Of a DNA stretch of 64,000 bases, positions 6,845 through 56,443 are shown piece by piece; within the stretch, counting starts at the first letter, position 1; the number at the start of each line of letters is the position of its first letter. The stretch lies in assembly GCA_015178975.1 (NCBI GenBank), contig WHVD01000042.1, positions 549,501 through 613,500 of the forward strand. Direction: 5' to 3'. The DNA comes from Hysterangium stoloniferum. Taxonomy: Eukaryota > Basidiomycota > Agaricomycetes > Hysterangiales > Hysterangiaceae. Made by a program: the position numbers and the translations under genes. The notes under the pieces are model-generated. The model did no database searches. It saw nothing but the letters and a program-made list of their open reading frames with translations, and was not told the origin of the DNA.

Positions 6845-7068
6845 CATAGTGCCCGTGGGGGAGTCAACTGCATTAAAAAGCACAAGGAGAAATGAGGTGA
6901 GGGAGGAGATGCAAAGAGTTAATCACTACGTCACAACCAAAAAGGATGGCAGGTTTAGAACCGTGTCTTCTGCCCTCAAAGGCCGAGTGCATTCTCAAAT
7001 TATCTTCATCTCACTTCTTCTTAAGCTATTGCTCCAGCTTAACCCCCCCCATAGTTACTACAAGATAG
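6845..7068. mobile_element. MITE-like insert at the palindrome centre (left arm)
   Basis: A segment of about 225 bp sits exactly between the inverted flanks 'acattgtaactatc' and 'gatagtgtgacaatgt'. Its ends are weakly inverted (ATAGTGCCCGTGGGGGAG against GTAGTAACTATGGGGGGG). The same insert is at about 15105-15325 in the right arm, so it was present before the arms were duplicated. No protein is supported. Calling it a MITE rests on its size and ends; it could instead be the unduplicated spacer of the inner palindrome. Confidence 0.4.
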
Positions 7069-35260: not shown

Positions 35261-37862
35261 ATGTCCTACCAATTCAGGACTGTGTCACCTTCTGACTTCT
35301 ATCATACTTCCCTTCTCTTGCCCTCACCTCCTCTCCCATCATCACATGTGATACCCCTCACCCCCACACTCCCATCTTCAAAACGTGCAAGATACTTATC
35401 TGAAGCATCCAACATGCAGGTCCCACACCCCCATAGTCCCATGAACGTGGATACCCCCATATGCCCTCTTCCCCCCAACTCCTCTTCCATGGTCAACATC
35501 CCCCAACTGGTCACTCCAGTCAGGTCATCTCCATGCCATTGCCTGGTCACTTCAGTCACATTATCTCCACAAGTGTTTGAAGGTGAGTCAGACACTGGCA
35601 TTTTCACTGATGGCAGCAAGGATGCCTCTTCACCCACCAAGAAGAGGACACAACGACGCAAGCCCAGGGAGGAGTTCTCGACCAATGACCTCAAAGCACT
35701 TTTGAGTGCAGTTCTAAATGTCAACCCCTGGATGTGCATGCATGGGGAGTCAAAGGACAAGTGGCAGGAGGTGTCAGTTTGGGCCAAACAGGCTAATGCA
35801 TGTGAGGGACATTCAGCTGATACACTGAAAAACAAGGTGTACAGTCTCTTGAAAGCTGTTGAGGTGCATTTTTTTTTTCCTTATGTTTTTTATTTAACAA
35901 CTCTATTAGACTCGAGGTGATAGCACATGGAATTCTCTCACTTGTGATGCAAATCTTTTCACTGCCATCTCAGGTCATTTGGATTCTGTGGCAGCTCTCA
36001 AAAAACTGGTGGAGGAAACAAGGGAATCTGATCATGAGAAAGTGAAACTGGTATGTTGTTCTTGATATTATATCTTTATTCTACTCACTTTTTTTAGGCA
36101 GCTGAAGCTCAGAAGACTGCTGGCTTGAACTTGCATGATATGATGATGAAGGGCCATTCGTGCCGATCCCTGAAGAAGTGCACTCAGGATGATCTTTTTT
36201 CGGCCACAGGGCATTCTGACATAGCACAGGAAGACTCCTCTGGCTCTGGCATATCAATGTTGATGAGCCGACATACTTACTTCGAAGAGCAAGAAACACC
36301 ATGAAGACACACTCAAGTCAATCTGTAATGTATTCAGGGGATTCTCTTAGATAGCTCAATATATGCTATAGTGTCACAGAGCTTCAACAATAAAACAAGC
36401 AAAGGTCCAGTAATTTAAATACTGATAGATTAATGAGCTGTGCTATGAAGCTTAAACAACTCAAATCAATGCTTATTTTGATTATTGAAAGGTTCAATAG
36501 AACTGTGTATGACTCTTTTAGCAATAAAAGAACTATTCCTTGAGAATAGGGACTGGAAGCTGAATATATGTGCAGTAACTTGGCAGTAACTTGGCAGTAA
36601 CTTGGCAGTAACTTGGCAGTAACTTGGCAGAGACTTGATATAAGAGCTTCGGATTCTTGTATGCTTATTTGTAACTATTAATAGTTATTTAACAAGGTGT
36701 TAAATAATTTATTAATAGAGAAAATAAATTGTATTGGATTATCTGAGTGCTTGTACTTGATTAATTCAATAAACTTAGGACTGGGCCTTGAGTAATCTAG
36801 TATTGGCAGGGATTTCAGTAAGGATACTTAGATACTTATTAGGTTTATTATCTAATTAATAAGCCTAAAGGGTAGCTGTGAGGCTGGGGGAACTTAGATG
36901 ATTAGCTAAGTCCAAGAGTTGCTGACAAAGATTCAAGATGCTGCAAGTGTAGGTGCTTGCAGTGAGTGTATCAGACTAAGGCTATTATTGTCCTTAGGAT
37001 GATGAGGTAAGCTTCTGTGCTGTACTGTAAAATGTGTGTGTGATAAGATGATTTTATTGGAAACTTAGCCCTCCTTATATACATTTTGATAACTCAATGA
37101 TTAGCTAACTATTTAGTTTATGAGGTCATTAGTGAGATCATAATAACCTCATATTCTACTCATTATTTACCCTTTGTCTATCATGTGATTCCCTTCTCTG
37201 AGACAAGGGTTCTAACCTCTTGCTTGAACAGGAAGGTTCAAGGCTGCGGTCCCGGGACGGAAGCAAACGATGAGTCGGCAGAATCTAATAATGACTCGGG
37301 TAGTCATGTTCGTGACCTGTGTGACTCGGGTAATTGTCACCTGCTGACAAATCATTCCCTCAATCCCAAATTTGAAGCGCCGGGCATGAATGATGACATA
37401 ATGTGTTCCCCTGGAGGCTTATCTAATAAGTCACATGACTCCAAAAATGTGCAAACTAGGCTGCAGCAAGGTGCCGAAAGGTAATAACTAAGTAAATAAA
37501 ATATAAATAATTAGTTAAAAATTATAATAAATTAACTAAGATATAATAGCATAATATGAGTTCATATATGCTATTATTATGCGAAGTTAAAAGGAATAAG
37601 GCCTATTTTTCACAATAAAAATATAATAAAAATACAATAAATTTGAAAGAATATTAAATAATCCACAGAAAATTAAGAGAAAATTATGAGATAATGTTGA
37701 TACATCACACAATCATTGGCCTTATTCGTACTTCAGTGGATACAAGGGAGGTTATGATCAGTGAGCAATGCAAGCAGACAGAAGCATTCATTCTGGAGGC
37801 ACGTGCAGCACAAGAGGAGGCACATGCATGAGATTGCGAAGTCGCTCATTGATGTGTTGAGA
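35261..37862 (+). pseudogene. Harbinger SANT/Myb-like accessory protein, broken
   Basis: DNA-binding partner expected to bring the transposase to the element ends. Exons are 35261-35863, 35910-36050 and 36098 onward, with clear GT-AG introns. Exon 1 holds a Ser/Pro-rich N-terminus, a basic stretch (KKRTQRRKPREEF) and a SANT-like helix region (FSTNDLKALLSAVLNVNPW, KDKWQEVSVW, LKNKVYSLLKAV). Exon 3 has at least one frameshift near 36240. It is then cut by an L3 solo LTR (36324-37709) and resumes at 37715 with IGLIRTSVDTREVMISEQCK and a conserved C-terminus after another small deletion near 37830. The start could also be an in-frame ATG at 35228. Confidence 0.75.
36324..37709. mobile_element. 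Solo LTR, family L3, copy 2
   Basis: It begins TGTAATGTATTCAGGGG and ends GATACATCACA, with a perfect TSD CAATC (36319-36323 and 37710-37714). The length is 1386 bp. It contains a private expansion of an 11-bp word (CAGTAACTTGG, five copies at about 36572-36628) that is single in the other L3 copies. It is inserted in the last exon of the SANT gene. Confidence 0.9.
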
Positions 37863-40964: not shown

Positions 40965-42600
40965 AGGACATCTGACTAGACGATGGGACGTCTATCCTAA
41001 AGAGGGGAGTAGCGACTATGCCACAGTTAATCCGCATAATTTCAAGCCTATGTTTTCATCGGAACAACTGTCCGCATCTATCCGAGCCACTTACCTCATT
41101 CATCCAGTCTTGCAAAGTGTTATTCTTATGGATACCAAGAAATTACATCAAGATATATTATCAGCAATTCAATCAGACCCAGTCACCAAAGCACACCTCA
41201 ATAACCCGTCTGACCCCGATCAACCCCGATGGTCACTAGACTCACAAGGTTTCATTAGACTTGACAACCACATTTATGTACCGGATTCCAATAGCCTTCA
41301 GCTACGAATCCTACAACATAAACATGACCACCCGATCTCGGGACACTTCAGCCTCAATAAGACTCTTTCACTCATTAGAAGAGAATATACATGGCCTGGC
41401 ATCTGAGATTTCGTTAAGCACTATTGCAAATCTTGTACAACGTGTTTACATTCTAAATCACAGCGACACAAACCATATGGCCTATTCAAACAACTACCAA
41501 CACCAGAAAAACCCTGGAACTCAATTTCTATGGATTTCATCGAGCACCTACCGGCATCCGAATGTCATACAGCAATCCTAGTTGTTGTGGATCGGCACTC
41601 ACAAAGCAAAGTATTTTCATTCCAACATATGACACGATAACATCTGTACAGTTAGCCGAATTATTTGTCACCCACATATTTTCCAAGCACGGCATTCCAT
41701 CACATGTCACATCCAATTGCAGATCCGGGTTTGTCTCTCACTTTTTTAGGTCACTCGGAAAAGCACTAGACATGAAGTTACATTTCACTTTGGGCTGATG
41801 GCCAAACCAAACACATGAATCAAACTTTGGAACAGTACATTCGTGTGTATTGTAACTATCAACAAGATGATTGGAAATCACTACTACTGCTAGCTGAATT
41901 TGCATATAACAATGCACCAAATGCCACTACTGGTATTTCACCTTTCTTCGCAAACAAAAGCTACAACCCCAATATCGCAATCCACCCGGAACGCGATCTC
42001 GCATCCGCCCGTGCTCAAGACTTCATTACAAACCTTGACAAGCTACATCAAGAACTTCGTAAAACTATCGCAATGGCCCAAGAACGATACCAACGGTCCA
42101 CGGATAAGAATTGACTTCCACCTCCTGATTTCAAGATTGGAGACCGAGTATTCATTAAAGCTGAGTTTTTCCAAACTACTAGACCCTCTAAAAAGCTCTC
42201 TGAAACATATTTAGGTCCTTTTGAAGTTATAGCACAAGCTGGCATGCTTTCATGGGCACTTCAGCTTCCCGACAACATGCATGCAGTGCACCTGGTATTT
42301 CACGTATCTATGTTAGAACCATGTGTTGCTAACAAAATAACGGGTCACATACAACCACCACCGCCACTTGTGATCATTGATGGAGAACCTGAATTTGAGA
42401 TATCAGAGATCCTAGACTCAAAAATCAACAATTGCCGATGCTCATGCAAATTACTTTATTTGGTTAAATGGGCTGGCTATGAAGGGACAGATGAAGAAAC
42501 TTCGTGGATCCTAGCTACAGAGCTCAGTAATGCCTCGGAAATTGTTTTAGGGTTTCACCAAGCCTATCCAAATAAACCTGGTCCTCTAAATTCTTTATAA
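40965..42600 (+). pseudogene. Gyp-X pol, 3' part: integrase and chromodomain
   Basis: Plus-strand continuation of Gyp-X pol. It starts at the RNase H tail (HLTRRWDVYPKEG). The zinc-binding H2C2 region follows (HDHPISGHF ... CKSCTTC, about 41320-41450), then the catalytic core (WNSISMDFIEHLP with the first Asp). The second Asp position reads TSN (Asp to Asn) and the following SEF-type Glu segment reads SGF, so the active site is lost. Next are WKSLLLLAEFAYNN, PPPDFKIGDRVFIK and VHLVFHVSMLEPC. A chromodomain ends the protein (FEISEILDSKI, LLYLVKWAGYEGTDEETSW). Stops at about 41404 and 42112 and a frameshift near 41640 prevent translation. The chromodomain is expected to steer integration to modified histones. 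Confidence 0.85.
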
Positions 42601-42687: not shown

Positions 42688-43682
42688 AATTATTTAAAAG
42701 TTTCCTCTATCACCTCCCCTTCTTCTCCAGCTTCCGAGACCTCCCCCTCACTGACAGCCACCAATACCTCTTCACTGACCTTTTCCGATGCCCCAACACC
42801 AGGCCCAATTCCGTCACAACTCGACACCTCTAAATACTGCTCAAGTTGTCCTCCTAGGGACTCTATAACGCTGGTTTGTTTCTCCAGCCCGACACCCAAA
42901 AGTCGCAACTGCTCAGTCCTAATACCTTGTTGTCGCAGTGTCTCGAATCAGAACCAAGTCGTCTCCAAGAAATAAGTGTGCATGAGGCGGTTTTGCTCCT
43001 CTAATGCATCGGCCTGCCATTCTTGGTAAGATCTGTTTCCATCGGCATCCGGGAAGACACATCCAAGTTTTTGGTTGGCACACTCTTGACAGGTGTGGCC
43101 CCGACCACTTGCTTGAGGATGGCAAGTCCGACCCCATTTGGTGCACCGGTTGCACTTGGGGTCGTTTTTGGCCCCCGCTTTAGGGGCTTGTTTTTGTTTC
43201 TATAATCAAAAAAAATTAGAAAACTTTAAAAGTAGGAAACTGAACCCACCTTGGGGCTTGATGGCCCCGGTGCATCCTCCTCATCCTCCTCGTCCTCTTC
43301 GTCATCAGACTCCGAAGGCGTCACAGCCTTGCACTAAAGAAAAAAATCAGCAAAGGTTCGCAAAAGAAATGGGAACCCACTTACTTTTCCCTCTCGCTTT
43401 TTCTTCGCCGCCTCCTCTCGTGCCTGATCAGCCTCCCACTGCTTCTTCTTTGCAAGCACCACATCCCAGTGCTTGCGTGCAGCCTCTTCCGCTGCCAGCT
43501 TCTTCTCCTCCACCTTGATGGCCACCAGCTCCTCTTTCTCTTTCCGCTCCTCCTCCTCATGCTTTCCTCTTCTCCTCGAGAAGGTGTCAACGTTCCTGTG
43601 CACTAGGTGGTCCACTCGGGACTGACATGGGAGCAACCATCAACTGAACCGGGAATGGCTTCGACCCCGAACCTATGGTCAT
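42688..43682 (-). pseudogene. Antisense spliced gene in Gyp-X: coiled coil plus Zn2Cys6-like cluster
   Basis: A gene antisense to Gyp-X, between the chromodomain and the 3' LTR. Exon 1 (43385-43682; ATG at 43680-43682 in CCACCATGAC) has a Pro/Ser-rich start and a long Lys/Glu/Ala coiled coil ending EGK. Intron 1 is 43334-43384. Exon 2 (43250-43333) encodes CKAVTPSESDDEED and ends GPSSPK. Intron 2 is 43200-43249. Exon 3 starts KQKQAPK and holds CX2CX6C-X10-CX2CX6C (CNRCTKWGRTC ... CQECANQKLGC), then a helical, acidic C-terminus ending at TAA near 42688. The spacing fits fungal GAL4-type clusters. Two in-frame TGA codons and a frameshift in exon 1 break this copy. The same layout occurs in Gyp-Z, so it is part of the element. 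Function is unknown; DNA or RNA binding is a guess from the cluster. Confidence 0.8.
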
Positions 43683-43841
43683 GGTGGTCAAGGGGAGAGA
43701 AGTGAAAATTCAAGCGCCAGAACCCCTCAAATTTTTATATGTAAAATTTTACCGAGTCACATGATGTTTTGACACACCAACCGTACCCGACAAGTTTTTA
43801 CATACGGAATCTAGATTTTCAGCCTCCTTGGGATTTTGGCC

Positions 43842-43852
43842 AAATGGGGGGA
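43842..43852 (+). promoter_or_regulatory. Polypurine tract of Gyp-X
   Basis: AAATGGGGGGA lies three bases before the 3' LTR, the expected place for the plus-strand primer of reverse transcription. A matching G-run (AGGGGGGTAC) precedes the Gyp-Z 3' LTR. Confidence 0.75.
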
Positions 43853-43855
43853 TAC

Positions 43856-44601
43856 TGTTACGACCGTGTCACAACCTGACAGTCCCCGAGGTTATCACCT
43901 CCTATCGACGATTCAAGTCATCATTCAAGTCTTCATGTCAGAAACTGTCGGTTTCCCGATGCTGATGTATGCCTTCACGGTGATCAAACTCCATTTATGC
44001 CCCCGTTGAAATATACTCGTATTATCTGGTTAAACTTTGATATGTCCCTTTTATTATGATGATCCGTTCTACTCTATGTTTCACATATGTCTATATACAT
44101 ATACTTGTAACCCTCGGACTATTTCCTTTTCTCGTAATTCCGCTATCGGTTATCTCATGGCCTCCAAACTAATTGTAACCTTCCCGTTCCTAGTCAAGCT
44201 TATTTGTCAATACCGTTTTCAGCTTTTCTCCTAGTTAGTATCTCCTAGGTGCCGAATACTTGTATATGAACCCATTGTAGTTGTAGTTACTAGGCAATCA
44301 GAATATCGATTCAGAATACCCTCCTATGCCTACAGAAGTCTCATACTAAGTACTCCACTATCCACCTTCGTGTGCGCTCACCCACTCTCGGCCTCCAACC
44401 CCTTGGCCCGACACTCAACTTATCCTTCATTTCCGATCGGTAGTTTCGCCGAGAGGTATTCATTAGAACTAGTCTTCACCCACCTGAAATTTAAGGACAC
44501 CCAACAGATAACTGCGAGGGCGCAGCACATAAGCTGAAGCCAAGTCCTTCCGATCGGTCCCTGTTGGCCCACCGACATTAGTCAGTTTTCAGTTCTTAAC
44601 A
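43856..44601 (+). mobile_element. Gyp-X 3' LTR (family L1)
   Basis: It begins TGTTACGACCGTGTCACAACC and ends AGTTCTTAACA (746 bp). The following GTCAG (44602-44606) pairs with CTGAC outside the other Gyp-X LTR once the inversion is taken into account. The conserved motif is at 44514-44549. Confidence 0.88.
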
Positions 44602-44728
44602 GTCAGGTGCATATACAGTGGGGTCTGGGTGCTGGCAAGTTTTCTGGCTAACTGTAACCTGGTGGGTATAGAGAGTCAGGTGCATGTAGGATGGGGTCTG
44701 GAGCCTGGTGGGTTTTCCAGTCCTAACA
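44602..44728 (-). mobile_element. L2 solo LTR, 5' end (split and inverted)
   Basis: Read on the minus strand, it starts TGTTAGGACTGGAAAACCC and continues through repeated 'ATGCACCTGAC' words to the Gyp-X insertion point. Behind its terminus lies GGAGT (44729-44733), the complement of ACTCC that follows the other part of this LTR at 33885. Together with 33304-33885 it makes one L2 LTR. Confidence 0.75.
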
Positions 44729-44733
44729 GGAGT

Positions 44734-45620
44734 CATCAAAGGGGTTTGGGGTGTCAGGGGCAGTGTCAAAGGTTAATTGGGAATGAGAGTTCCTGCATTG
44801 GGAGTTGCTTGTCATTCCCTCAAAGCTTCCCTTTCCAGTTTGGCCATGCTAAGAAGGTGACGCAGTTGTGGTTGGTGAAGGGAAAGTTTGACTGGGATAT
44901 TTTTCTCCTGTAGGTGTCTGTCACTTTGATCCTCATGTCTGTTGGAAAGCCTTCCAGGATCAGTGGGCGATTGAGTGAGTGGAGGAAACAAGTATTGGGG
45001 GAACTCTTGAGCTCTTGTACAAACGAGTCCATTGTAGAAGCTGGAGATGGAGGTATTTGCATAATTTCATCATATTCATGCAGTAATTCCATCATCATTT
45101 TGTCATGTTTTTGCTGGATGTGCAGGAGTCTAGACCAAAGGCTGAAATATGTGAAAGATATATTGGGTGACCTTTCATAGAGAGAATGTTCTAGGATCTG
45201 AATGTATAGGTATTGATAGTCAACCTTGGGGACAGCATGGAGACATCTAATCAGTACATGCAAAATTTGCAATGTATCATTGTGTACATTGAGCAGGTCT
45301 ACCAGTTGGATAAACAATTCATTTTTTATCACCATTCTTCCCCTTTCCATCATGATCATCAGCTCTTCAGACCATTCAGGGATTTATTGAGTGACCTCTT
45401 CCAGAGTTCTTTATTGTGTGAATAGGGTTTGGGCCAATTAAATCCCATGATACCTACCCAACCAAATTGCAATTGTCATGTGCATGGTGGGGTATCTCAT
45501 CTTGTAGTCCTGTGCAATTGCTGTAATTTCCTCCTCTGAAATCCGAGAAGCATAGTACATGTCCGACTTGTCATCAATAGGTTCATTGTAAACCAATCAT
45601 CCATGGTAGGTGTGCTGAAG
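44734..45620 (-). pseudogene. Possible Gyp-W N-terminal gag segment
   Basis: A minus-strand frame, open from 45359 to 44820, can be followed upstream through two stops to about 45620 (KSDMYYASRISEEEITAIAQDYK). It encodes a helical, Leu/His/Tyr-rich protein with no domain I recognise. By the TSD logic of the inversion, this DNA was joined to 33886 before the L2 insertion, directly upstream of the Gyp-W gag core, so it may be the same gene's N-terminal part. Evidence for that link is positional only. Confidence 0.45.
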
Positions 45621-46119
45621 CATTACTTGACATGGTGGAAATTCCAAAATCACATTGTCATTATGGGTAGGTGAAGGGTTTCTTTCCAGTGTTTTTGGTT
45701 GTTCCTGGTGTGAGCATGATCCTGACTGGGTGAGACAACTGTCAGTGGTTCAACCTGGATTTGGGGGGAACCTCCAACAGAGGCTTGTTTTTAGGAAGTC
45801 AGTGAGGACTTTCTCATTGTAACATTTCCAGGCAGTTCAAGACTAGTGGGTCTTCATCATGGGAGGGAACTAGTCAATCCCACTGAAGGTTTCACAGCCT
45901 GTTCCTGTAATCATCATGTGTAGCTAAATGTAAAAGTTTTTTCTTTTTATTAAAACATTTTCTTCATAGGAAAAGAACAGTCTGGCCCAGATCACCATTG
46001 TAAAGAGTTGTGGAAGTTCTCACTGCTCTATATACAGAGAATATTGACTGTCTAGGTATGATACAACAATATATTGACTATTGAAGTACAATATAGAAAG
46101 TAAACTAGTTTTAGTCAAC
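45621..46119. other. No supported gene
   Basis: Decayed sequence between the Gyp-W fragment and the Gyp-Z LTR. I see no domain, LTR end or tandem repeat. Confidence 0.35.
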
Positions 46120-46689
46120 TGTTAAGTACTGTGTCGGAACTTATTCCAGAACTATCAGAAAGTCACTGGGAATTTGGAAACTATCGGATAGGGTCAGGAT
46201 GTCAGCTTCAGCTTATGTGCTGCACCTTTATGCAAACACTCGGAAGTCCTTAATTTCAAAGGTGGAACTTATGCTGGAAGATACGGATATTCAGAGTTCT
46301 GAAGATTTCTGAATATCGAGTGTACAGAAAGATGGAAGATGGAATAAGAAACTAAGTCAATAGAGAGTATTTGCAACTAATATCAGATCTAAAGTAAAGT
46401 ACAAATTCACAGAAACTAATATAAGTCTTCTCATTATTGTACTACAAACTAAGACCACAATAAGATGGAAATGGAAGTATTCCAAAATGGGAATGCAATA
46501 AGATGAATTGGAGAGACATTATTCTGAAATGGGAATATAATAAACAAATGAGTGAATGCTTGTCAATGGACAAATTACCAAATGTGGAACAAGGGAAGAT
46601 TACGGAAGATGTGGTAACTATGATGTTCCATAGTCAGAAGTTGGAAGTTGAAAGTTGGATATTGAAACATCCGAGAACGGGTTGTAACA
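46120..46689 (-). mobile_element. Gyp-Z 3' LTR
   Basis: Minus-orientation LTR, TGTTAAGTACTGTGTCGG to GGTTGTAACA on the plus strand (570 bp). A polypurine tract (complement of GTACCCCCCTG) adjoins it at 46690-46700. It carries the conserved motif at 46202-46232 and, at 46363-46381, one terminal inverted repeat of the Harbinger family with a TA in front. Part of a second copy is at 59434-59634. Confidence 0.82.
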
Positions 46690-46929
46690 GTACCCCCCTG
46701 TTAGGCTGAAGTCCCATAGAGGCAATTAGGTACTGAATAGTTGAAGTGATGGTTGATTGTTATGTGTTGTGAAATTTATGCAATTCTGGAAGTGAGAGTT
46801 TTGGCTGCTGGTCTGAGTATAAAAACTTCCAAATATTTGAATTAACAATTTTGTTTCTTTAACCACAACTTGCATATCGATTCGTTGACTGTTATTTGCC
46901 ACTACCCCAGAAGATTCAGACGCTGAAAT

Positions 46930-47999
46930 CACCATACTCGAAAAAATGTCAAGGTCAAAGAACTTCAACAAAAATGACAGAGGATGGAAGAGTTGAAGTG
47001 ACAACAAGAGGAGGAGGGGAAAGTGTTGATGCAAGAATTGACGGAGGCAGAAGAGGTGGAAAAGTGCAAGTTGGAGTGGGTGAAGGTGGAAAAGGAGGCA
47101 TGGTTGTGGAAAATGGCAGAGGATCAGAAGTTGAAGGATGAAGTGGAGAAAAAGGAGTGGGAGGCCGAGGTGGTGGAAATGCGAGTGAAGGAGATAAGGG
47201 ATGGAAAAGTAAGTCAAAACAACAATGTTCTGTGTTTCTTCCGATAACAATTGAACACAGTGAAAAGCCGTGGAGGTGGAAGTAGAGGGAGAGGCTGGGC
47301 CTTCAAGTCCTAAAGTAAGTGATTCTGTAAAAGGTCGGAAGTTAACTAATTTCTAAACAGAAACAAAAGGTCAAAGCTCCGGAATGGATGGAAATTGTCC
47401 ATGACAGTCCGTGTTATTGGTGTTCGATTTGGAATTTGACTTGTTGGAAACAGAAGGTAAAATGGGGCAGAACTTGCTACCCTTGCGTGGTACTCAAGCT
47501 TCCGTGCACTCTTGCCATGAAGAGGGCTCTGAAAGGTGAGAAGGCTCAGAAGACTGATGATGTGGAAAATCCAGGAGTAGCCAAGAATACAGAGACTGAG
47601 GTACCAAATACAGATAGTTCCAATGTCAGACTTCTCAAAGACACCGTGGATGCATTGGTGTTTATCAGGACGGAACTGACGAAGATGCGGGATGTGTTGG
47701 AGCACCATAATGAAATCCAGGAAAAAGGTTTCCAGTCATTGATCTGGAATTTCCAGAGGCAGAACAAATTCCTGGAGAAGGTAATGGTCAGCATCAGTGT
47801 TATTGCAGTTTCCGAGAGGTTTGCTGATAAGGCAAGGGATCAGCCAAATGATCTATTGGTGGAATATATGGAGAAGAGAGAGTCGGGAAAGGGGCTGGAA
47901 AGTGAAGATGATGAAGTGCAGGATATGGTGGAAAGTACAGAGATTGCGGATGATACGGGAGTTGAAGTGGACGGAGGATTTGGGTGTCAGAAACTTTAA
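46930..47999 (+). pseudogene. Antisense spliced gene in Gyp-Z: coiled coil plus Zn2Cys6-like cluster
   Basis: Homologue of the antisense gene in Gyp-X, here on the plus strand against minus-strand Gyp-Z. Exon 1 (unclear start, about 46930-47208) is a Glu/Lys/Trp coiled coil ending RDGK. Intron 1 is 47209-47260. Exon 2 (47261-47314) reads KAVEVEVEGEAGPSSPK after a TGA. Intron 2 is 47315-47360. Exon 3 (47361-47999), fully open, starts KQKVKAPEW. It holds CX2CX6C-X10-CX2CX6C (CYWCSIWNLTC ... CYPCVVLKLPC), then a segment with hydrophobic heptads (LVFIRTELTKMRDVLEHH) and an acidic C-terminus. In-frame TGA codons near 46975 and 46996 and at the start of exon 2, plus a frameshift near 46960, make it a damaged copy. 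Intron places and phases match the Gyp-X copy. Confidence 0.78.
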
Positions 48000-50690: not shown

Positions 50691-51143
50691 CAGACTGTTA
50701 TGTATTTCTAAGTTTTTTCCAATTTTTAAACAATTTCCCCTAACAAATTGTGAAAACAAATATTCAAATGTAATTATATTGCGACGATAAAATTGTATAA
50801 TATTGGTTTGATTTATCCTGAATTTATACAATTTATTTTGTATTTTTATCTAATACATTGAGCAAGTTATTGAATTTCTACTTTTAATTCTTTTTTGATT
50901 AATATGTCGGCGACTCAGCGCTTATTCACAATGCGCGAGTAATCATGTGATATTCACATGACATTTCAAACTCTGACGCCAACAAAACGCCATGCGAAAT
51001 AATCGCGCATAATCAAGGTAATATATATATTTATATTATTATAATAAAATATTATATTTATAACTAACTAAAAATAAATATAATAAATATAATAATATAA
51101 AGCCGGCCACCTGTGTTTATTATACGGCACGTGGGAAACTCCT

Positions 51144-51280
51144 CACAACAAGTGACAGTTGTCACAACAAGTGACAGTTGTCACAACAAGTGACAGTTGT
51201 CACAACAAGTGACAGTTGTCACAACAAGTGACAGTTGTCACAACAAGTGACAGTTGTCACAACAAGTGACAGTTGTCACA
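51144..51280 (+). repeat. Tandem 19-bp repeat, seven copies
   Basis: Near-perfect copies of CACAACAAGTGACAGTTGT, continuing to about 51440 as diverged GTCACAGAGGCGC-type words. Each junction contains the inverted pair GTGAC..GTCAC. A shorter version is in the L4 copy at about 57315-57430. Confidence 0.88.
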
Positions 51281-51868
51281 AGGGCGCGTGACGGTCAGAG
51301 AGGCACGTGACTGTCACAGAGGTGTGCGATGGTCACAGAAGGACATGACTGTCACAAAGGCGCGCGATGGTCACAGAGGTGCACAACAGTCACAGAGGCG
51401 CACGATGGTCACAGAGGCACATGACTGTCACAATGTGTGACAGTCACAAGACGTGAAAGGTGTCATGTGCACGCACAGGCGCGAGAGCATTATATATGCT
51501 ACTACAGCAAAAACCGGAAATTCCCTGGAATATTCCAGTGGCTTCCAAAGGAATAGTAGCTAATAGGTACTAATAATAGATAGAATATTGTAGAATATTC
51601 TATAAGATTCCAGAAAGTTCTATTGTGCCAAGAATATTCTAGTGTCTTAGGAGTAGTTAGAACTTCTCACAATACTCTAGAAAATTCTAGAAAATTCTAA
51701 ATGACATCATTCCTTCCAGAATGACATCATTCAATCTTCTAGAATCTTCTAAATGTCTCAGACTAAAATGTATATAAGGAGCTCAGCTCCAGCCTTGAAT
51801 ATAATCAATAAATCAATCATATCATCACATCAACCCACCATATCTGTGTGTGTCACTGCAGCAAGCAG

Positions 51869-52110
51869 GCTACTCCACCCCTATCTGGGCAGTTGGACAT
51901 CTAATTCCACCTCTATCTGAGCTGTTGGAAACCCTTGCCACCTCTATCAGAGTTGTTGGCCCAATCAGATCCCTTGCCACCTCAATCTGAGCTGTTGACT
52001 GATCTGCTGTTCCCCTTGTCACCTCAATCTGAGTTGTTGACTTTTGTTCCCCCTTGCCACTTCTTAACTGAATAGTTGGCTATCTTTTATATATCATTTC
52101 CACCTCAGTT
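51869..52110 (+). repeat. Imperfect CACCTC...GTTGG repeats
   Basis: About seven spaced copies of a word like CACCTCTATCTGAGCTGTTGG, 35-55 nt apart, downstream of the TATA-like box of this L4 copy. The related copy at 57.8-57.95 kb has fewer and more diverged ones. Confidence 0.65.
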
Positions 52111-52821
52111 AAAGTTGTTGGTTATCAACTAATAATATATAAATAATCTCATACTATAGTCATCTCTTAATTGAGTACTGATTATTAGTTTTCCTTACAT
52201 TGTTATTTGTAGTTTAAGACTTCAGTCACCTCTAGTTGAGTAATTTGACTGTTTATTGCATTACAAATAATCCTTGTTCTATTGTTCATTCATTGTGAAT
52301 CAGTAAAGCATATTCACATAAACAAATACTGAGAATATCCTTGCAAGATCCTAAGACTACATTAAGATCCTGATAAGTTAATATCACAGTAGACCTTGTA
52401 GGTTAGTGTAAATAAAGCATATATTAGCCAAATAGTGTTTTATTCTATATCTAATCTTTTGACCCGTTTATAAATATTTTTACTGTTTGACAAATAGTAT
52501 AAAGTATATATAAACTAGCTAGTATTGAAGTTAAATCTAGCTTCAGAATCAGTAAATTGTTATTCTTATTTTAATAGTTGTTGTCACAGAAAAAGAACAA
52601 GCTTGCACAAGCAGCTCTCAAAACCTTCTTTGCGAAGTTGGGTGCATATATTTAAGTAAACTCTTGACTTCAGGGGTTCTAAGTCTACTAAGGCTGCCAC
52701 TGATTAATATCAAATACTTAAATTATTTTACCTTGCAGTGAATTGAGTATTTGCACACTTTGATAGAGCATTGGACTCCTTTTTCCAGAAAATAATATTA
52801 AAATAAGCCTAATACATTACA

Positions 52822-52916
52822 TACCCACTTCCACTCATTACCAACTTACTTGATGCTCCATGGAAAGCTCGGATTTATACCAAAATAGACCTTAAACACA
52901 CCTATCATTTAGTCTG
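52822..52916 (+). pseudogene. Inverted 95-bp piece of Gyp-Z reverse transcriptase
   Basis: On the plus strand it encodes [30 protein letters not shown], except that Gyp-Z is on the minus strand. It is precisely the RT segment missing between 53284 (ending KDKY) and 50695 (starting at the TGA IAEGDEW segment). It starts with TACCC and ends with GTCTG, the two insertion-site words. Confidence 0.85.
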
Positions 52917-53278
52917 TGTGATGTATTATAATAATATATAAATATATATTTTACCTTGATAATGCGCGAGTATTTCAAATTGCGTTTTGTCCTTGTCGGA
53001 GTTTGAAATACCATGTGAATGTCACATGATCTTTTCACACATTGTGACTAAGCGCTGAGTCACCGGCATATTAATCAAAAAAGAATAAAAGATAGAAATT
53101 TCGTAGCTCTCTCAATTTATTAGATAAAAATACAAAGTAAATTGTATAATTTCAAGATAAATCAAGAGAATATTGTACAATTTTATCGTCGCAATATAAT
53201 TACATTTATTTATTCATTTTCGCAATTTGTTAGGGGAGATTGGTTTAAAAAATGAAAAAGGCTTAGAAATACATAACA
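52917..53278 (-). mobile_element. L4 element, copy 2 (362-bp deletion form)
   Basis: In minus orientation it begins TGTTATGTATTTCTAAGCC and follows the first 350 bp of copy 1, then jumps directly to the terminus ATACATCACA. It is followed by GGGTA (53279-53283), the complement of TACCC. All of the repeat-rich middle is missing. Confidence 0.8.
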
Positions 53279-53283
53279 GGGTA

Positions 53284-54863: not shown

Positions 54864-56443
54864 TGTATTCAGGGGTTTCTCTTAGATAGCTCAATATATG
54901 TATGCTATAGTGTCATAGAGCTTCAACAATAAAACAAGCAAAGGTCCAGTAATTTAAATACTGTCAGGGGACTCTCTGTCACAAACCCTAGGAAGCACCA
55001 TTTTCTCATCTCATTGAAGTCCCTTAGTCCACAGTCCAACCCCTGCCTTTGTCACACTCCCTCTCCTTGTGGATATCAACTACTCTGGCTAATATGTAGA
55101 GTAGAGGACTAACTTCAGAAGTTCATAGGAGTAATATTCCATTGTGGGAAGAACCTCTGTTCTGTAATAGGTAAAGTTATTTTTAGACTACTGGGTGCCT
55201 ATGGGTCACACCTGGCAGAGGGAATTCCTTAGATTGTTTCTCTTCGGATTCCCTCCTGTTAGGTGAGTTAGGTAGTTGTCTGTATGTATGTATTAGTTCT
55301 AATACATATATCTTCGGATTCCCTCCTGTTAGCCTAGTGTGAGTACCGCAGGCTGCAGGGATTGCCCTTACAAATACTGATAGATTAATGAGCTACGCTA
55401 TTAAGCTTAAACAACTCAAATCAATGCTTATTTTGATCATTGAAAGGTTCAATAGAACAACATATGACTCTTTTAGCAATCAAAGAACTATTCCTTGAGA
55501 ATAGGGGCTAGAAGCTGAATATATGTGCAGTAACTTAGCAGAGACTTGATATAAAGCTTCGGATTCTTGTATGCGTATTTGTAACTATTAATAGTTATTT
55601 AACAAGGTGTTAAATAATTTATTAATAGAGAAAATAATTTGTGTTGGATTATTTGAGTGCTTGTACTTGATTAATTCAATAAACTTAGGGCTGGGCCTTG
55701 AATAATCTAGTATTGGCAGGGAATTTCAGTAAGGATACTTAGATACTTATTAGGTTTATTATGTAATTAATAAGCCTAAAGGATAGCTGTGAGGCTGGAA
55801 GAACTTAGATGATTAGCTAAGTTCAAGAGTTGCTGACAAAGATTCAAGATTCTGCAAGTGTAGGTGCTTGCAGTTAGCGTATCAGACTAAGGCTATTATT
55901 GTCCTTAGGATGATTAGATAAGCTTCTGAGCTGTGCAGTAAAATATGTGATAGATTGATTTTATTGGAAAGTTGGCCCTCCTTATATACATTTTGATAAC
56001 TAAATATTTAATCATTTATTTACTTTATGAGGTCATTATTTAGGTCATAATGACCTCATATTCTACTTATTTTTTACCCTTTATTTACCATGTGATTCCC
56101 CTCTCTGAGCGGAAGCATTTGATGAGTCGGCGGAATCAAATTATGACTCGAGTAGTCGTTACAGTCACATTTGTGACATGACTCCAAAAATGTGCAGACA
56201 AGCCTGCAGCACCGAAAAGCAATAACTAAGTAAATAAAATATAAATAATTAGTTGAAAATTATAATAAAATAAATAAGATATAATAGCATTATATGAGCT
56301 CATATATGCTATTATTATGTGAAGTTAAAAGGAATAAGGCCTTATATTTCACAATAAAAATATAATAAAAATACAATAAATTTGAGAAAATATTAAATAA
56401 CTCACAGAAAATTAAGATTATGAGATGAGGCTGATACCTCACA
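54864..56443. mobile_element. Solo LTR, family L3, copy 3
   Basis: It begins TGTATTCAGGGG and ends GATACCTCACA, with flanks GGTAC and GGTAT (4 of 5 match). It is inserted about 11 bp inside the L2 LTR and is itself interrupted by L5 at 54962-55372. Confidence 0.82.
54962..55372. mobile_element. Solo LTR, family L5
   Basis: 411 bp, beginning TGTCAGGGGACTCTC and ending ATTGCCCTTACA, with a perfect TSD AATAC (54957-54961 and 55373-55377). An internal direct repeat CTTCGGATTCCCTCCTGTTAG occurs twice (near 55244 and 55312). This is the youngest layer of the four-level nest. Confidence 0.85.

Follow-up and report, generated by a model that had tools for sequence, protein, structure and literature searches.

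The window analysed here is a stretch of 64,000 nucleotides (nt) from the basidiomycete Hysterangium stoloniferum (assembly GCA_015178975.1, contig WHVD01000042.1, positions 549,501 to 613,500). It contains two retrotransposons, Gyp-X on the plus strand and Gyp-Z on the minus strand, each of which carries an additional gene on the opposite strand, between pol and the 3' long terminal repeat (LTR). We call the two gene types X and Z, after their carriers, and refer to loci fetched from elsewhere in the genome by L numbers. Coordinates are those of the window and were obtained by mapping onto intact copies from the same genome, which confirmed the exon, intron, and cysteine positions proposed for both genes in the initial annotation.

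The X-type gene of Gyp-X is a decayed copy with three exons, mapped on an intact copy to 42694..43682 of the minus strand. Exon 1 (43385..43682) is charged, probably helical, and ends in REGK, and the acidic exon 2 (43250..43333) ends in GPSSPK. The introns that flank exon 2, both in phase 0, are 51 nt (43334..43384, GTAAGT...TAG) and 50 nt (43200..43249, GTGGGT...TAG) long. Exon 3 (42694..43199) starts with KQK and encodes the cysteine array CX2CX6CX10CX2CX6C, a long helix predicted from the intact copy L021, and an acidic tail. A TATAAA motif lies 57 nt before the start codon (43734..43739, minus strand). The 3' LTR of Gyp-X starts with TGTTACGACC (43856..43865, plus strand), preceded by a purine-rich tract, and this edge is the same in full elements. 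Convergent with the gene, the C-terminal end of Gyp-X pol (42115..42600, plus strand) encodes an SH3 domain (PF24626) and a chromodomain-like end.

The Z-type gene of Gyp-Z, also a decayed copy, occupies 46874..47999 of the plus strand, from an inferred start at 46874 that reads ATA here; an inner ATG lies at 46946. Counted from this inner ATG, exon 1 (46946..47208) ends in DGK and is followed by a 52-nt intron (47209..47260, GTAAGT...CAG), an exon 2 (47261..47314) whose first codon is a stop in the window copy and which ends in GPSSPK, and a 46-nt intron (47315..47360, GTAAGT...CAG). Exon 3 (47361..47999) begins with KQKVK and encodes the six-cysteine cluster and an acidic tail; its frame in the window is open to 47999, and the stop codon of intact copies maps to 48004. 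A TATAAA motif (46818..46823, plus strand) precedes the start at 46874 by 56 nt and the inner ATG by 128. The edge of Gyp-Z (46683..46689, minus strand), read in the window copy (L001), is the same in L052 and L053. Common to both genes are an exon 1 ending in GK, an exon 2 ending in GPSSPK, an exon 3 starting with KQK, and the spacing C-X2-C-X6-C-X10-C-X2-C-X6-C in the exon 3 product. Both window copies are decayed and dead, with two in-frame stops and two frameshifts in X and three stops and four frameshifts in Z.

The H. stoloniferum genome (111 Mb, 554 contigs) was searched with both genes. Searches with DNA yielded 41 matches for X (the 40 best of 302 first-look candidates being scored) and 45 for Z (40 best of 387), and searches with the exon 3 protein yielded at least 150 matches each (150 best of 537 candidates for X and of 889 for Z). 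Since at most 150 copies were scored per search, these counts are lower bounds, and the relatives number in the hundreds. The proposal of two element-borne antisense genes in the initial annotation is thereby upheld and widened from two copies to hundreds of relatives, and homologues with introns in the same places are plentiful within this genome. The matched stretch (at most 83 residues) is free of stops in 122 of the 150 X exon 3 matches by hand count.

For closer study we took 20 X loci, none longer than 10 kb, whose selection favoured diversity and in part long open frames, and 30 Z copies, comprising 20 fetched loci, eight copies from the Z DNA search, and the Z genes within L012 and L020. 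The Z sample includes the copy from the window itself, and two of its entries, L044 and L052, come from a single locus. The three-exon gene is intact (start, stop, both GT-AG pairs, and frame) in 12 of the 20 X copies, which is not a genome frequency given how those loci were chosen, and in three of the 30 Z copies. Across 51 copies (20 X, the window X, and 30 Z), GT is present at 50 first and 50 second donors, and AG at 46 first and 49 second acceptors. Genes of the X and Z types are only a few kilobases apart at L012 and L020, indicating neighbouring or nested elements.

Comparison of the Z copies revised the start codon, which had initially been placed at 46946; the probable start is 24 codons (72 nt) upstream. 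We place it at 46874 because the ATG there is kept in 29/30 Z copies, the window copy being the exception, and because the upstream stretch evolves as coding sequence: its 24 codons contain a stop in only 1/30 copies, and their ratio of nonsynonymous to synonymous differences (pN/pS) is 0.30, versus 1.33 and 1.11 when the two remaining frames of this strand are read. The TATAAA motif stands at -56 from this start in all 14 Z loci (13 of them distinct) whose start region was located among the 30 scanned. In X it stands at -57 (once -54, once -58) in all 16 copies with a start codon found (17 scanned of the 20), and the start context is CCACC ATG in most located copies. Placed between the 3' LTR and the ATG, and outside the LTR, the motif is likely to be a promoter of the antisense gene's own, in the internal region and directed toward pol. 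The suggestion of transcription from inside the element toward pol is supported to the extent of this likely promoter.

The carriers are, to judge from their domains, Ty3/gypsy elements of the chromovirus type. Elements whose LTRs are up to 100% identical consist of gag, then pol, then the antisense gene in tail-to-tail orientation to pol, and finally the 3' LTR. Intact LTR pairs of 718-742 nt and 92.7-100% identity were found at 9/20 X loci (100% in L025, 99.9% in L023), and the pair is broken, partial, or absent at the remaining loci; the LTR pairs of the Z elements L052 and L053 are identical and 584-585 nt long. Target-site duplications of 5 bp flank six of the nine X elements (read by eye) and both Z elements. 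L025 has a gag frame of 441 residues and a pol frame of 1302 residues from stop to stop. Its pol ends at 6907 and the opposite-strand gene at 7006, with 98 nt between the two stop codons. Pfam recognizes gag, protease, reverse transcriptase, RNase H, integrase, and SH3 in L025 gag and pol, in chromovirus order; the chromodomain (PF00385) falls just below its cut-off of 25.1 bits, at 23.4 bits in L025 (E 5.6e-5) and 24 bits in the window Gyp-X (E 3.6e-5). The gene is intact in young elements with identical LTRs, L025 for X and L052 for Z.

A search blind to the gene was made with the last 605 nt of X pol, and the best 40 of 1516 candidates, all 99-100% identical, were taken. Exon 3 lies on the opposite strand within 700 nt at 35 of these 40 places by coordinates, and sequence revealed it at three more (L059, L061, and, in part, L058); in the other two, L057 and L060, internal deletions have removed most of exon 3 and other parts of the gene remain. 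All 40 X elements closest in their pol end have the gene or a remnant of it; as the closest relatives of L025, they speak for a young subfamily. The corresponding Z search paired 21 of its best 40 places with exon 3 by coordinates, and of the remaining 19, three were read, two having exon 3 and one a fragment. The deletions in L057 (C101:387592-388191) and L060 (C14:244822-245421) are distinct, about 490 and 530 nt, in elements whose pol ends are 99-100% identical to that of L025. They would fit copies complemented in trans by the product of others, and later deletion explains them equally well.

Ratios of nonsynonymous to synonymous substitution (dN/dS) were estimated by pairwise NG86, with no branch model. 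Among the 12 intact X copies (66 pairs), pooled pN/pS is 0.28, and single pairs with dS above 0.1 give dN/dS of 0.15 to 0.49; for nine Z copies, of which three are intact and six have a single stop or some frameshifts, the 36 pairs span 0.12 to 0.62. Across 13 X elements, in which the gene is intact in ten and damaged in L009, L023, and L024, dN/dS for pairs with dS above 0.1 is 0.19 for the gene and 0.17 for both gag and pol. The gene is co-inherited with its neighbours: its dS in these 13 elements correlates with that of pol (r 0.915) and of gag (r 0.932), neither value being reached in 5000 permutations. Neutral decay on terminal branches pushes dN/dS toward 1, so the true constraint may exceed that measured. 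As a side observation, mean antisense-gene dS among L009 and L017-L028 (pairs above 0.1) is 0.41, about twice that of pol (0.18) and above that of gag (0.25).

In a six-frame control the predicted frame had the lowest ratio in five of six exon/type cases. The mirror frames on the pol strand are also low, because third positions coincide, yet they contain stops in exons 1 and 3 (2, 0, and 61 stops in exons 1 to 3 of the 12 X copies; 11, 0, and 22 in the nine Z copies). Codon position 3 is the most variable, with 109/293 variable columns in X and 145/315 in Z, near the values for intron interiors (26/79 and 35/82); only 1/18 splice columns vary in X and 2/18 in Z. Codon change among the copies is not neutral, and these data support a real protein-coding gene under purifying selection about as strong as that on gag and pol. 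The initial annotation had spoken of past selection; selection is borne out by dN/dS, splice sites, and cysteines, but "past" is too weak, as intact copies occur in elements with identical LTRs.

The X and Z proteins are homologous, aligning over 139 columns at 37% identity with both intron positions in register (hhalign, E 8.8e-15). Identity between X and Z is 48% for gag, 80% for pol, and 35-37% for the antisense protein, the fastest-changing of the three between the families, yet constrained within each. From N to C terminus the protein opens with a short head and a charged region; REGKRKA and an acidic stretch come next, then GPSSPKKQK (basic and, by eye, resembling a nuclear localization signal, NLS), the six-cysteine cluster, a part predicted to be helical in X, and an acidic tail. 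AlphaFold, run on 13 exon 3 sequences, gives a confident helix at residues 54-126. The cluster cysteines are retained at 125/126 copy-sites in X and 176/180 in Z, and the only non-cluster cysteine of the reference copies at 18/21 and 22/30. GAL4-type zinc clusters have the spacing range CX2CX6CX5-12CX2CX6-8C, within which both proteins fall. The label "zinc cluster" is an informed guess that draws on how the cysteines are spaced and conserved. Pfam found nothing significant in two intact proteins and, at E<=1, neither TRP28 (PF04195) nor any bZIP family.

Genes in this position and orientation are known. According to excerpts of PMC7264820 and PMC11963269, antisense additional open reading frames (ORFs) between pol and the 3' LTR, termed aORF-3R, occur in maize Grande (gene23), rice RIRE2, Silene Retand (with a TRP28 domain), and PvRetro13; gene23 of Grande is served by a promoter of its own and encodes a nuclear protein, and TRP28 proteins are present in 97% of Retand clusters. 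The Hysterangium gene shares their place and strand and, with a dN/dS of 0.19 against 0.17 and 0.17, is conserved like the other proteins of its element. It differs in its carrier, a fungal element of chromovirus type, in its two conserved introns, and in its six-cysteine cluster; its protein has no Pfam domain, and so neither TRP28 nor SMC. A fungal parallel is brtn of the Boty elements, reportedly treated by Zhao et al. in Virology 417:248 (2011). Excerpts describe brtn as an additional gene of Botrytis cinerea elements, antisense and situated between pol and 3' LTR (PMC8365987, PMC7264820), and by that description the two agree in fungal carrier, orientation, and place, although Botrytis is an ascomycete. 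An "add. ORF" of unknown function is drawn in a figure for fungal chromoviruses (PMC2864245); its orientation and sequence, like the words "antisense" and "opposite", are absent from the available text, so it may or may not be of the Hysterangium kind. In human T-cell leukemia viruses (HTLV-1 to -4), HBZ and the APH proteins are spliced antisense products with nuclear regulatory roles, and HBZ is a bZIP protein with promoters inside the 3' LTR (PMC10186651, in part). HBZ, likewise the spliced antisense gene of a retroelement, serves as our working model for function, although the Hysterangium protein has no bZIP match and its TATA motif lies in the internal region rather than in the 3' LTR. 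We file the gene as a spliced, TATA-preceded, six-cysteine variant of the known antisense-ORF class in a basidiomycete element.

The interpretation we favour, with about even confidence, is that the antisense gene is a fixed accessory gene of a chromovirus-type Ty3/gypsy lineage whose product is a trans-acting nuclear regulator of the element. It would be a fixed constituent between pol and the 3' LTR, transcribed from its own likely TATA promoter and spliced twice. Because the gene runs against the genomic RNA, its introns could not be removed during retrotransposition and would be inherited with the element. The protein would most likely be nuclear and dimeric, acting via a small six-cysteine zinc cluster flanked by the basic NLS-like stretch, charged helices, and acidic regions. 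It could act in trans on LTR transcription or on escape from silencing, a role comparable to that of HBZ in HTLV-1 and GENE23 in maize Grande; we infer transcription, splicing, zinc binding, dimerization, nuclear location, and regulation alike. More tentatively, and with odds we regard as against it, this would be a retrotransposon lineage with its own intron-bearing, independently promoted zinc-cluster transcription factor that recognizes its own LTRs, a fungal counterpart of HBZ of separate origin selected as strictly as gag and pol.

Several results weigh against this interpretation. Neither of two intact proteins matched the zinc-cluster Pfam family PF00172 at E<=1, the cluster is modelled by AlphaFold with low confidence, at a pLDDT of about 50, and Foldseek retrieved no solved PDB chain for that part. 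Pairs of CGG cluster unconvincingly in the X LTR (297/1000 shuffles as high); in the Z LTR only 7/1000 shuffles are as high, but 4/74 internal Z windows equal the count. For Z exon 2, of 18 codons, the mirror frame has the lower ratio (0.07 versus 0.22). No homologue outside H. stoloniferum was found in protein or sequence searches, by a method that requires shared exact words. On the GAL4 question the evidence is divided. The spacing named in the initial annotation stands, and a profile of eight intact proteins matches the GAL4-type protein PPR1 (1pyi) among PDB sequences with all six cysteines in register; a helix is also predicted after the cluster. That match is weak (E 0.27-0.28, third of seven rows at E<=10, the two rows above it, at E 0.2, covering only the helical part), the Hysterangium proteins have a long charged N-terminal region, and in the Z protein basic residues are sparse between cysteines 2 and 3; assignment to the GAL4 family as such is not supported.

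A targeting or nuclear-entry cofactor, attaching to DNA or chromatin and directing the pre-integration complex instead of regulating transcription, would be suited equally well by the NLS-like stretch, the helices, and the cluster, and nuclear entry has been proposed for plant antisense ORFs (PMC7264820, in excerpt). We nevertheless think it unlikely, as pol already has a chromodomain-like terminal module usable for targeting, and apparent transcription apart from gag-pol, by the gene's own promoter, would suit a trans-acting nuclear factor.

Slightly less likely still is self-limitation, in which the protein as a dominant repressor, or a convergent antisense RNA feeding silencing as double-stranded RNA, lowers copy number. 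With 98 nt between the convergent stops in L025, read-through would yield overlapping RNAs, and HBZ, APH-3, and APH-4 lower expression from the 5' LTR (PMC10186651, in part). A function of the RNA alone, however, would not preserve frame, cysteines, and splice sites, and the abundance of copies whose pol ends are nearly identical does not point to strong self-limitation.

Zinc-cluster proteins are widespread among fungal regulators, and antisense introns would fit the capture of an intron-bearing gene. We find it improbable, however, that a captured host gene acts chiefly on the host, for instance on its gene expression, and contributes nothing directly to the element's cycle. The searches revealed no host parent: by eye, the 42 PF00172 matches of the genome all lie away from the family places among the best-scoring matches listed, and the protein searches returned just two models with family exons, both from H. 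stoloniferum (BU17DRAFT_68404 and BU17DRAFT_70826). The divergence of the gene, moreover, tracks that of pol and gag. An artefact can be set aside almost entirely, whether a shadow ORF lying against another coding frame or frames that are open by chance and shared through common descent, since the mirror frame carries stops in exons 1 and 3, conserved GT-AG sites, cysteines, and TATA would go unaccounted for, and intact copies, the six-frame control, cysteine conservation, and dN/dS all contradict it.

The gene provides a clear case for the long-puzzling backward genes of retroelements, with young intact copies, selection like that on gag and pol, and conserved splice sites, cysteines, and TATA. 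A 2020 review, in excerpt, urges a look at antisense and spliced transcripts (PMC7264820). Together with a small candidate metal-binding domain, these features make a backward gene testable, and orientation against the genomic RNA illustrates a route by which introns may survive in a retroelement.

One of the two deposited models also bears on annotation of the host genome. Three exon blocks of BU17DRAFT_68404 align perfectly to contig C537 (39/39, 30/30, and 28/28), and the exon junctions annotated in it, GK|HKAATP and GPLSPK|KQK, correspond to the family's two introns; BU17DRAFT_70826 has related exons. At L049 (C537 around 72343), the BU17DRAFT_68404 model links upstream exon blocks to exons of the antisense family, which may therefore enter host gene annotation or form chimeric transcripts.

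Other repeats occur in the window. The pol of Gyp-Z is broken by an insert of about 2.6 kb (50695-53279) with long inverted repeats; its 225-nt arms are 85% identical, the outer arms begin CTGTTATGTATTTCTAAG, and it looks like a terminal-inverted-repeat element. Inside it, at 51143-51433, the 19-nt unit TCACAACAAGTGACAGTTG forms a perfect array of 7.3 copies, with a degenerate 38-nt array after it. A short array of 5.4 tandem copies of GCAGTAACTTG lies at 36572-36637, and near 55525 there is a shorter stretch that is similar by eye, both in apparent copies of another repeat.

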